This document shows positions 11,706-14,154 of a stretch of DNA of 49,037 nt, in pieces (the first letter of the stretch is position 1; every line of letters begins with the position of its first letter). The notes under the pieces are model-generated. The model made no database searches. It was not told where the DNA came from and saw only the letters and a list, made by a program, of their open reading frames with translations. This DNA is from a virus. The position numbers and the translations under genes were made by a program. The stretch covers positions 1 through 49,037 of IMG/VR virus record IMGVR_UViG_3300035170_000032. One strand, 5' to 3'.

Positions 11706-11723
11706 CAGAGAGGATCGGTAAAA

Positions 11724-12518
11724 ATTCTTAAAGTTTTAGATTTATTCAGCGGTATTGGTGGGTTTTCTCTCGGCCTTGAACGTGCCGGCATGAAAACGGT
11801 TGCTTTCTGCGAGATTGAGAAGTTTCCACAGGCAGTGCTGCATAAGCATTGGCCTGATGTGCCGATTTATGATGATGTTTGCCAACTGACAGCAGAAAAA
11901 TTAAGGAGTGATGGAATTGGAACAATTGACGTTATTTGCGGCGGATTCCCATGCCAAGATATTTCCGTTGCAGGAAAAAGAAAAGGTCTTGCAGGGAGAA
12001 GAAGTGGATTATGGAAAGAATACGTTAGAATTATTAACGATATTAGACCCCACTACGTTATTGTGGAAAACGTCACAGGTTTGTTATCAGGAGCAAGGGG
12101 GGCTTGGTTTGGAGAATTTCTCACGGACCTGGCCCAAATCGGGTATGATGCAGAATGGGAATGTATATCGGCGCAACAGGTTGGAGCTCCACACCAAAGA
12201 CAGAGGGCTTGGATTATTGCTTACCCCAGTAAGGTCAGACGGAATAATGGCATATTTAATTACATCAAATATGAAATTCCGGCTTACAAAGAATGGAACA
12301 TATCGCAAAATATCAAATCAGGGAAAGGATGGAAACATTGGCTTATTGAGGTTTGTAAAAATTGTGACTGGTTTGTATCCAAAAGCGACTTTTGTGGAAT
12401 GGATGATGGGTTATCCAAAGAATTGGACGCTATTGCAACTTTAGGGAATGCCGTCGTGCCGCAAATCCCGGAAATCATCGGACGCGCAATAATGAATAGT
12501 TATGAAAATCGAAAATAG
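11724..12518 (+). CDS. Cytosine-C5 DNA methyltransferase, ATT start
   Basis: It encodes 264 aa. Motif I DLFSGIGG (residues 6-13) lies before the first ATG (11790). The frame is closed at TAA 11703, and the only usable start is ATT 11724, with AGAGGA 9 nt upstream. Other motifs: CGGFPCQD with catalytic Cys about 77, ENV about 115-117, QRQRAW about 160, and LGNAVVPQ near 245. The target-recognition part is short. It would methylate phage DNA against host restriction, or regulate. A second reading frame (11911-12444) is open and family-like throughout. Confidence 0.9.
   Translation: MLKVLDLFSGIGGFSLGLERAGMKTVAFCEIEKFPQAVLHKHWPDVPIYDDVCQLTAEKLRSDGIGTIDVICGGFPCQDISVAGKRKGLAGRRSGLWKEYVRIINDIRPHYVIVENVTGLLSGARGAWFGEFLTDLAQIGYDAEWECISAQQVGAPHQRQRAWIIAYPSKVRRNNGIFNYIKYEIPAYKEWNISQNIKSGKGWKHWLIEVCKNCDWFVSKSDFCGMDDGLSKELDAIATLGNAVVPQIPEIIGRAIMNSYENRK
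11911..12444 (+). CDS. Embedded +1-frame gene within the methyltransferase
   Basis: It encodes 177 aa wholly inside the methyltransferase in the +1 frame. AAGGAG lies 2 nt before ATG 11911 (8 nt before an alternative TTG 11917). The product has FSRTWPKSGMMQNGNVYRR (about 70-88), then a variable part and FVEWMMGYPKNWT at the end. From memory these match a family of unknown-function phage proteins with (E)TWPRSGM-x-RNG-x-A/VYRL and VEWLMGFP-x-GWT motifs, usually found beside dcm-type genes. Both motif blocks arise from conserved methyltransferase codons read +1, which suggests birth by overprinting. Expression is unproven. Confidence 0.6.
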   Translation: MELEQLTLFAADSHAKIFPLQEKEKVLQGEEVDYGKNTLELLTILDPTTLLWKTSQVCYQEQGGLGLENFSRTWPKSGMMQNGNVYRRNRLELHTKDRGLGLLLTPVRSDGIMAYLITSNMKFRLTKNGTYRKISNQGKDGNIGLLRFVKIVTGLYPKATFVEWMMGYPKNWTLLQL

Positions 12519-12708
12519 CCCAATAGTCAAATACCTATACCTCATATTTTGCAAGTGCGGATGGGGAAAGTATATTATTCCTGACGGTACGGAGGTCAAT
12601 ATAGCTTGCGATATGATCAAGCAAGAGGCTGAGTTAGGGTGCCGTTTCTGCGGCGGTGAAAAGCTTCATATGAGAAATGCTAACGATGGGATGAATGAGG
12701 CAATGTAA
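12502..12708 (+). CDS. Small zinc-ribbon-like protein
   Basis: It encodes 68 aa overlapping the end of the methyltransferase. FCKCGWGKYI and CRFCGGEKLH provide CxC and CxxC pairs about 30 residues apart, the layout of a zinc ribbon. Its stop overlaps the next start. Confidence 0.65.
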   Translation: MKIENSPIVKYLYLIFCKCGWGKYIIPDGTEVNIACDMIKQEAELGCRFCGGEKLHMRNANDGMNEAM

Positions 12709-13130
12709 TGACAGTGTTTGACCTGATTAAATGTGGGCGTTTAAAGCTAAATGTCGCCAGAGATATTCTTAAAAAAGAATCATCAAAATATGGTAGTGAT
12801 TTTGTTGAAATGGTTTGCGATCCTCCTAATGATAATTTTATAAAGGCACTGCGTTCACGAGATTTTTTGGTGCAAATATCTCAAGAAAATGGTGCTATCC
12901 GTCTCTCTATAAATCGCACTATTTTAAATCAAAAAGGAACGCGCTGGCAAGATGGCATTAGCTGGGATGAAATTCAGAATATCAAAAATAAAATTGGTTA
13001 TGCTGAGAGGTGCGCTGTCGAGATTTATCCACCGGAAAATCATAAAGTCGATGTTGCTAATATACGTCATATCTGGGTTTTAGAAAAAGAACCCGATTTT
13101 ATGTGGAAAAATAATTTGGTTGACAAATAG
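12708..13130 (+). CDS. DUF7694-like phage protein
   Basis: It encodes 140 aa. The C-terminal ~80 residues (ISWDEIQNIKNKIGYAERCA, then EIYPPE, then NIRHIWVLE) match a small phage domain with WDEL-x(2)-KNEI, AVEVYPP and NMRHLWVL blocks. It is the last gene of the rightward operon, and its final codons and stop lie in the left arm of the 40-bp inverted repeat. Confidence 0.75.
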   Translation: MTVFDLIKCGRLKLNVARDILKKESSKYGSDFVEMVCDPPNDNFIKALRSRDFLVQISQENGAIRLSINRTILNQKGTRWQDGISWDEIQNIKNKIGYAERCAVEIYPPENHKVDVANIRHIWVLEKEPDFMWKNNLVDK

Positions 13131-13205
13131 GTGGTATTTTCGGCTATGGTTGCGATGACACATATGCAACCATAGCCGAAAATACCACCTATTTGTCAAC
13201 CAAAT
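13114..13205. repeat. Perfect 40-bp inverted repeat, 12-bp loop
   Basis: 13114-13153 is the exact reverse complement of 13166-13205, with loop GATGACACATAT. It marks the end of the rightward operon. A run-on transcript would form a 40-bp RNA duplex, a good RNase III substrate, and the DNA could extrude as a cruciform. There is no U-run after it, so it is not an ordinary intrinsic terminator. Each arm contains TTGACA pointing inward, without a good -10. Confidence 0.97.
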
Positions 13206-13368: not shown

Positions 13369-14154
13369 TTATTTTCCATACTGGCGATATGCTAATCCGC
13401 AAAGCAAATCACAATCAATAGGTTTTTCTTTTTCAAAAAATCCAGCATTTGGATCTAACTCATCCAGATAAACCGGAATTGCCTTTCTTCCTTCCTCTTC
13501 TTTTTTATTTAACGCGCGCCCTATCAGACGCTCAAGCTTTGCCATACGATCAAATTGCTCTGGAAAATCTATGCGTATTTTATTCCAATAACCCATTCCT
13601 CCCTTAACACAACCTATGCAATTATTATGACCATACGGAGTACCAGACTTTTGCTGTCTATACATGAAAGGAAGTTCGATTCCAGCATCTTGCAATATCG
13701 CCTTACAATTCTCGCTGGTGAGCATTCCTTCTAGGAGGGGCAATTCCAAATCGATTGATGGATTTTGTTGCCTAAATCGCTCAATACGGTTATTTTCATC
13801 ATATGTATATCCAAAAATCTGTATATCATCTGATCGCTGGAAATTCTTACGTATTTCTTTTTTTAATAAATTTGTACATGGAGCGCCATTTATTCCGGTA
13901 AGAAATTTTTTTCTTTCAAAAACCTCCCATATATTATTGTAATCAGGAGATTTTAATATGATTATTTCGTGATTGAACCATTTTTTACAATCACTTAAGA
14001 AGCGCATATTATCAGGGTGTTCGCTGCCAGTATCACAATAAGCAACAATTATTTCATGATCGTGTTTATATTTTTGAATCGCCATTTTCGCTGCTACGGC
14101 TGATGTTGCACCACAAGAAAACCAACATATAACTCTTTGATTATCGAAACTCAC
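13369..14154 (-). CDS. PAPS-reductase-like ATP-pyrophosphatase
   Basis: It encodes 261 aa. The N-terminus VICWFSCGATSAVAAKMA is a PP-loop (SGG-x-TS type), followed by AYCDTGSEHPDNMRF. The C-terminal half has CIGC about residue 181 and CDLLCG near the end, which could ligate an Fe-S cluster. The family covers CysH, DndC and many phage proteins. The phage members' substrate is not established; sulfur chemistry on nucleic acid or sulfur assimilation are the options. It is the last gene of the leftward block starting at about 17386. Confidence 0.8.
   Translation of the reverse strand: MSFDNQRVICWFSCGATSAVAAKMAIQKYKHDHEIIVAYCDTGSEHPDNMRFLSDCKKWFNHEIIILKSPDYNNIWEVFERKKFLTGINGAPCTNLLKKEIRKNFQRSDDIQIFGYTYDENNRIERFRQQNPSIDLELPLLEGMLTSENCKAILQDAGIELPFMYRQQKSGTPYGHNNCIGCVKGGMGYWNKIRIDFPEQFDRMAKLERLIGRALNKKEEEGRKAIPVYLDELDPNAGFFEKEKPIDCDLLCGLAYRQYGK

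Follow-up and report, generated by a model that had tools for sequence, protein, structure and literature searches.

The window, a stretch of 49,037 nt (49 kb) from an IMG/VR virus record, holds two genes on one strand of the same DNA: alpha, read in frame 0 and specifying the large subunit of a C5-cytosine DNA methyltransferase, and beta, read in the +1 frame inside it (Table 1). Beta is a selected protein-coding gene, conserved among the relatives of this locus, and the nesting was shown to be strongly conserved and widespread in phages. We consider it highly probable that the two frames specify one C5-cytosine methyltransferase, made as two polypeptides from one DNA stretch, in which alpha is the catalytic chain (motifs I-VIII and X) and beta docks on alpha and gives motif IX and, most probably, the recognition region.

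Table 1. Features of the nested methyltransferase locus, in positions of the window
Feature	Position	Strand	Basis
GAGAGGA, possible Shine-Dalgarno of alpha	11708..11714	+	sequence
Alpha, C5-cytosine DNA methyltransferase large subunit, motifs I-VIII and X	11724..12518	+	PF00145, phrog_363, motif coordinates
Alpha motif I, LDLFSG, AdoMet binding	11736..11753	+	motif coordinates
AAGGAG, internal Shine-Dalgarno for beta	11903..11908	+	8 nt before TTG 11917, 2 nt before ATG 11911
Beta, nested +1-frame subunit, putative target-recognition region and motif IX	11911..12444	+	open-frame, shadow-similarity and substitution tests; phrog_1008
Alpha motif IV with catalytic Cys, GGFPCQDIS (PCQ)	11940..11966	+	motif coordinates
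Alpha motif VI, VIVENV (ENV)	12057..12074	+	motif coordinates
Beta conserved FSRTWPKSGMMQNG, opposite alpha LTDLAQIGYDAEWE	12118..12159	+	motif coordinates
Alpha motif VIII, RQRAWIIAYP (RQR..AYP)	12198..12227	+	motif coordinates
Beta LLLTPVRSD, family consensus LLPTPxASD module; putative target-recognition region begins	12214..12240	+	
Beta motif IX, FVEWMMGYPKNWT, opposite alpha FCGMDDGLSKELDA	12391..12429	+	pattern, L066 vs M.HhaI alignment
Alpha motif X, LGNAVVPQ	12441..12464	+	motif coordinates

In a Pfam search alpha matched PF00145 with E 9.6e-51 (173.6 bits against a curated cutoff of 22), covering only profile positions 1-192 of 324, and a PHROG profile search matched it to phrog_363 ('DNA methyltransferase'). 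Ahead of its motif I (window 11706-11735) there is no ATG, GTG or TTG; the sole start-like codon is ATT 11724, which stands at the position of the relatives' starts with GAGAGGA upstream. Initiation at AUU is rare but known (infC), and is possible for alpha at this codon. The lack of a usual start codon might also indicate a decaying locus in which the start of alpha is gone and the phage makes neither protein, a reading that we find very unlikely given the placement of the ATT, the GAGAGGA before it, and two frames that are both intact over 175 codons with all motifs present.

Beta is 177 aa long from ATG 11911 or 175 aa from TTG 11917 (MEQLTLF...), its stop codon is at 12442-12444, and the +1 frame is stop-free over 11905-12441. 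An earlier, sequence-only reading of this DNA had proposed two proteins in one stretch, the inner one starting after AAGGAG and staying open to near the end of the host gene. The frame-0 and +1 motifs are all where it placed them, and the AAGGAG and the open frame stand; its start codon is refined to TTG 11917, the better-spaced candidate, because ATG 11911 lies just 2 nt from AAGGAG. When the synonymous codons of alpha were shuffled with its protein and codon usage fixed, none of 20,000 permutations kept the span stop-free (0 stops observed against 6.76 expected, P < 5e-5). The longest +1 run of the locus reaches 179 codons where 64 would be expected; in +2 the run is 33 against 42. Toward the closest relative found (L016), +1 identity is 44-50% inside the nested span and 17-18% outside it. 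Beta matched phrog_1008 (E 4.6e-20), as did all 46 members tested; the inner family, which the sequence-only reading had taken to be of unknown function, is labelled 'DNA methyltransferase' and is most likely part of a methyltransferase. Pfam, NCBIfam and PADLOC held nothing for beta, and PDB sequence searches by beta or a beta profile gave chance hits only. An AlphaFold model of beta alone was poor (pLDDT 61.8, pTM 0.25) and Foldseek returned no matches for it, which we treat as neutral evidence.

The +1 frame is likewise open in 203 non-redundant viral loci, which were gathered by alpha alone so that their selection was not biased toward a +1 result; many are metagenomic contigs, and pair counts are without phylogenetic correction. 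A +1 run of at least 140 codons is present in 203/203, with a mean of 242 codons against 109 expected from synonymous permutation, and no relative has a +1 frame cut short by scattered stops. The +2 frame of these loci reaches 55 codons against 62 expected. The +1 excess is present in five of five GC bins and is clearest at low GC, because chance stops are most likely there: below 50% GC, P is at most 0.01 for each of the 42 loci. Measured against synonymously permuted pairs, +1 similarity to the window has a z of 4.16 from the nested start to motif VIII and of 3.16 from VIII to IX. The 5' part of alpha, which served as an internal control, gives 0.54, that is, none upstream of the nest.

Substitution patterns point the same way. 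In close pairs, each with its own 5' control and partly non-independent, the ratio of third- to first-position changes is 0.92 inside the overlap, compared with 2.77 for the 5' part of those genes. Third-position changes per codon fall from 0.290 in the 5' part to 0.151 inside the overlap, and fourfold-site divergence from 0.354 to 0.113. Of 41 loci, 25 have a properly spaced Shine-Dalgarno sequence before a +1 start, where 8.8 would be expected and 200 shuffles gave 16 at most. It could be argued that the +1 frame is only a shadow, a by-product that conserved methyltransferase codons and codon usage leave behind and that is not translated, since every conserved +1 motif sits on conserved alpha codons, a derivation that the sequence-only reading had rightly pointed out, and since high GC makes a long +1 run to some extent expected. 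Synonymous permutation, however, controls for both conserved codons and codon usage, the fourfold sites are suppressed inside the overlap only, the 5' control is without +1 similarity, and relatives have the same sequence as an annotated separate gene or as an in-frame part. We regard the by-product reading as refuted by these tests, and give it next to no credence, unless all of them have a common unseen bias.

A tblastn search with the inner protein found 119 phage and 7 plasmid records, and a scan with a single beta protein found 9 loci. Ten of the phage loci were read. Nine have the match one frame (+1) off the methylase frame, which is annotated in all of them but L003; in L007, the remaining one, the annotation follows the +1 frame itself, and an intact frame-0 methylase is present as well. 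Some homologues of beta are annotated separate genes or lie within single-frame methyltransferases. Neither of the two outcomes that the sequence-only reading had named as refuting it, scattered +1 stops in relatives and a lack of homologues outside shadow translations, was thus observed. Beta apart from alpha was never found among the loci read; L118 was considered as a stand-alone beta and rejected, the C-terminus of alpha being present in the other frame. The nested state is the usual one among relatives rather than a relic kept by the genome of the window, as had been suggested.

Two groups of these relatives deserve description in their own right. In one subclade (L002, L004, L007, L133-L135; beta beginning MSWLFS...), found in E. 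coli prophages, a Leptospira plasmid and Acinetobacter and Microcystis phages, the +1 ATG lies about 4 nt after the alpha start and beta nearly spans alpha. In its member L133 (E. coli PCP07014 prophage), the annotation marks alpha, which has an internal stop, as a pseudogene, and the same few bases make a stop in the beta frame. In the other group, of actinophage records (L364, L365 and L006), overlapping pairs of 'DNA methylase' genes are annotated (Peaches 77/76, Lilbooboo 32/33, Smooch 7/6), each pair most likely being one enzyme.

Motif IX places beta within the methyltransferase. It is absent from frame 0 of alpha in the window and appears in beta as FVEWMMGYP, of the form FVEWMMG-x-P-x-x-W. 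Of the 203 loci, 153 have this pattern in the +1 frame, 3 in frame 0 and none in +2; the three frame-0 cases (L028, L259, L302), examined as counter-examples, are single-indel exchanges between frames and not clean. The identity of the motif rests on L066, which has IX and X in one frame and covers PF00145 positions 1-323 of 324. Its RLNPEFVEWMMGYPIGW...GLGNSLVP aligns by phmmer to KLHPRECARVMGYPDSY...QFGNSVV of M.HhaI (273-315), a domain that scores just 5 bits alone yet is collinear with a strong N-terminal match, and its AlphaFold model superposes on M.HhaI 12-321 with Z 25.5 and rmsd 2.9 over 232 residues. As a control, high-GC actinophage loci with IX in frame 0 have no significant +1 excess, whereas loci from the same search with IX in +1 do. 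By this alignment the C-terminus of beta is motif IX, and beta is most likely the second subunit of a two-polypeptide methyltransferase. A real overprinted protein with a function other than methylation, e.g. a regulator or an anti-restriction factor, would account for the N-terminal half of beta (EQLTLFAEDS ... FSRTWPKSGMMQNG), which is without counterpart in ordinary methyltransferases, and for the poorly folded model of beta alone. It would leave unexplained that beta ends in the very motif missing from alpha, that it is never seen without alpha in the loci read, and that fused and split relatives exist; we consider it very unlikely.

In C5 methyltransferases the target-recognition domain lies between motifs VIII and IX, and for this reason beta would be expected to carry it. 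We cut the gene into segments and compared 60 pairs, every locus being used once. The third/first ratio is 2.55 before the nest, 2.15 from the nest start to VIII and 2.38 after the nest; between VIII and IX it is only 0.80, and over the final 30 codons, which include IX, it is 0.95. Conservation between VIII and IX in these pairs is higher for the +1 protein (0.633) than for alpha (0.573). Over the 204 codons of the VIII-IX segment, L136 and L138 differ at 16 first, 7 second and 0 third positions, which is the pattern of a gene read in +1. In L066, most of the frame-0 stretch after motif VIII is modelled with pLDDT below 50.

Actinophage relatives tell a similar story. ArcusAngelus gp74 and DotProduct gp64, of mycobacteriophages, have I-VIII, LLPTP (PTP) modules, IX and X all in a single frame, whereas in Peaches gp77/76 and Lilbooboo gp32/33 alpha stops after VIII and the +1 gene holds the PTP modules, IX and X; Smooch gp7/6 has the same split. 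PHROG 1008 spans nested betas and actinophage C-terminal halves, and ArcusAngelus gp74 matches both PHROG 363 and PHROG 1008 in one chain; in profile comparison only the LLPTP surroundings of the two kinds align (Prob 98.3, E 2e-14, 48 columns). Judged by the rates and by these single-chain and split relatives, beta probably carries the target-recognition region. The frame change near motif VIII in actinophages could instead suggest programmed frameshifting, which would fuse frame 0 and +1 into one chain with no independent initiation of beta. The class of the window has IX in +1 and X in frame 0, so that two opposite shifts would be required, beta is constrained far upstream of VIII, and internal Shine-Dalgarno sequences are enriched; we find frameshifting extremely unlikely.

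Less well suited to a simple two-subunit scheme are actinophage loci of the L330 type (L330, L335, L345, L351), with I-VIII, IX and X in frame 0 and the PTP modules in a +1 frame that closes just 5' of motif IX. Tandem modules are seen in the variable region of L037, L099 and L351, with LLPTPxxxD in +1 and (V)ADTxxxG in frame 0 in up to about 5 copies, and are possibly several recognition units. From the two-subunit enzyme we lean toward a broader proposal, that in phage C5 methyltransferases of one large class the recognition region is encoded in +1 within the catalytic gene. Between VIII and X the DNA would code chiefly for beta, with the alpha reading there as filler, lineages would move among single-chain, split and nested states by shifting the frame of the recognition region, IX and X, and specificity modules would be duplicated in two frames at once.

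As to origin, the sequence-only reading had derived the whole family by overprinting of a dcm gene. This appears right for one part of beta: its N-terminal two thirds, which overlie the conserved motifs IV-VIII of alpha and have no equivalent in ordinary methyltransferases, look overprinted, as does the alpha stretch opposite the recognition region and motif IX. It does not extend to motif IX, which aligns to ordinary single-chain C5 methyltransferases. Since IX and the PTP modules are both common to single-chain enzymes, in that part it may be the alpha reading that is newer.

In the mechanism that we infer, one message would be translated into alpha from 11724 (apparent AUU) and into beta from 11917 or 11911, the latter started by its own internal Shine-Dalgarno sequence. 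Beta would dock on alpha and complete the small domain that binds the DNA major groove and recognises the target, and alpha would flip and methylate the cytosine; either chain alone would be expected to be inactive or non-specific. The enzyme presumably shields phage DNA from host restriction, and none of the neighbours scanned was recognised as a restriction gene. Elsewhere in the window, a perfect 40-nt inverted repeat with a 12-nt loop (13114-13205) starts inside the 3' end of an ORF at 12708-13130; it has no Rfam match and is either a strong hairpin or a fold-back assembly artefact. A phage phosphoadenosine phosphosulfate reductase-like gene lies at 13369-14154 on the minus strand (phrog_424, E 1.3e-51).

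Long same-strand nested genes with such evidence are rare in prokaryotes and phages. The present pair occurs in hundreds of phage, prophage and plasmid records, from Mycobacterium, Vibrio, Bacteroides, Microcystis, E. coli and Leptospira hosts, and in the majority of records read only one of the two proteins is annotated. If our interpretation is true, phage methyltransferases cloned or modelled as alpha alone are without motif IX and probably without the recognition region, and would seem inactive or be assigned a wrong specificity. Relatives in single-chain, split and nested form also allow the formation of overlapping genes to be followed step by step, which is rarely possible.

Among two-polypeptide C5 methyltransferases, M.EcoHK31I and M.AquI are already known to have motif IX in their small subunits; M.EaeI is another two-polypeptide enzyme, and the specificity of M.EcoHK31I is YGGCCR. 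Lee, Kam and Shaw are said to have described in 1995 a small subunit of M.EcoHK31I of 176 aa, nested in an alternative frame of the large one, with both subunits reportedly needed in vitro. Beta of the window, nested in another frame of the alpha gene, resembles that reported arrangement. An E. coli search for an EcoHK31I-like locus gave four prophage relatives, with no restriction gene near them in the stretches examined.

M.EcoHK31I is a naturally split enzyme (PMC3439449) with motifs I-VIII and X in its large subunit, IX in its small subunit and a recognition domain predicted in the large one (PMC3404938). By this published motif layout the window is alike, alpha having I-VIII and X and only beta having IX. 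It differs in being an orphan phage gene, as judged from the neighbours scanned, and in that rates and relatives favour recognition by beta, which would conflict with the published prediction. In M.AquI the large polypeptide has I-VIII and the small subunit IX and X (PMC3404938). There, too, two polypeptides make one enzyme with I-VIII in the large one, but X (LGNAVVPQ) of the window stays in alpha, unlike in an AquI-type split; it is the actinophage relatives Peaches, Lilbooboo and Smooch that look AquI-like. M.HhaI and other monomeric PF00145 enzymes have the same motifs, but in a single chain with the recognition domain and IX in one frame, and the label of PHROG 1008/363 omits that most members found here nest in another gene. 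In the literature searched, with REBASE outside the search, no paper on phage nesting of this kind was found; the ShiLan paper (PMC11855218), considered as a precedent, concerns an out-of-frame HNH insertion in a phage methylase, which is a different thing. Relative to M.EcoHK31I and M.AquI, the breadth of the arrangement in phages, the evidence of selection in two frames and the case for recognition by beta are new as far as the literature searched shows.
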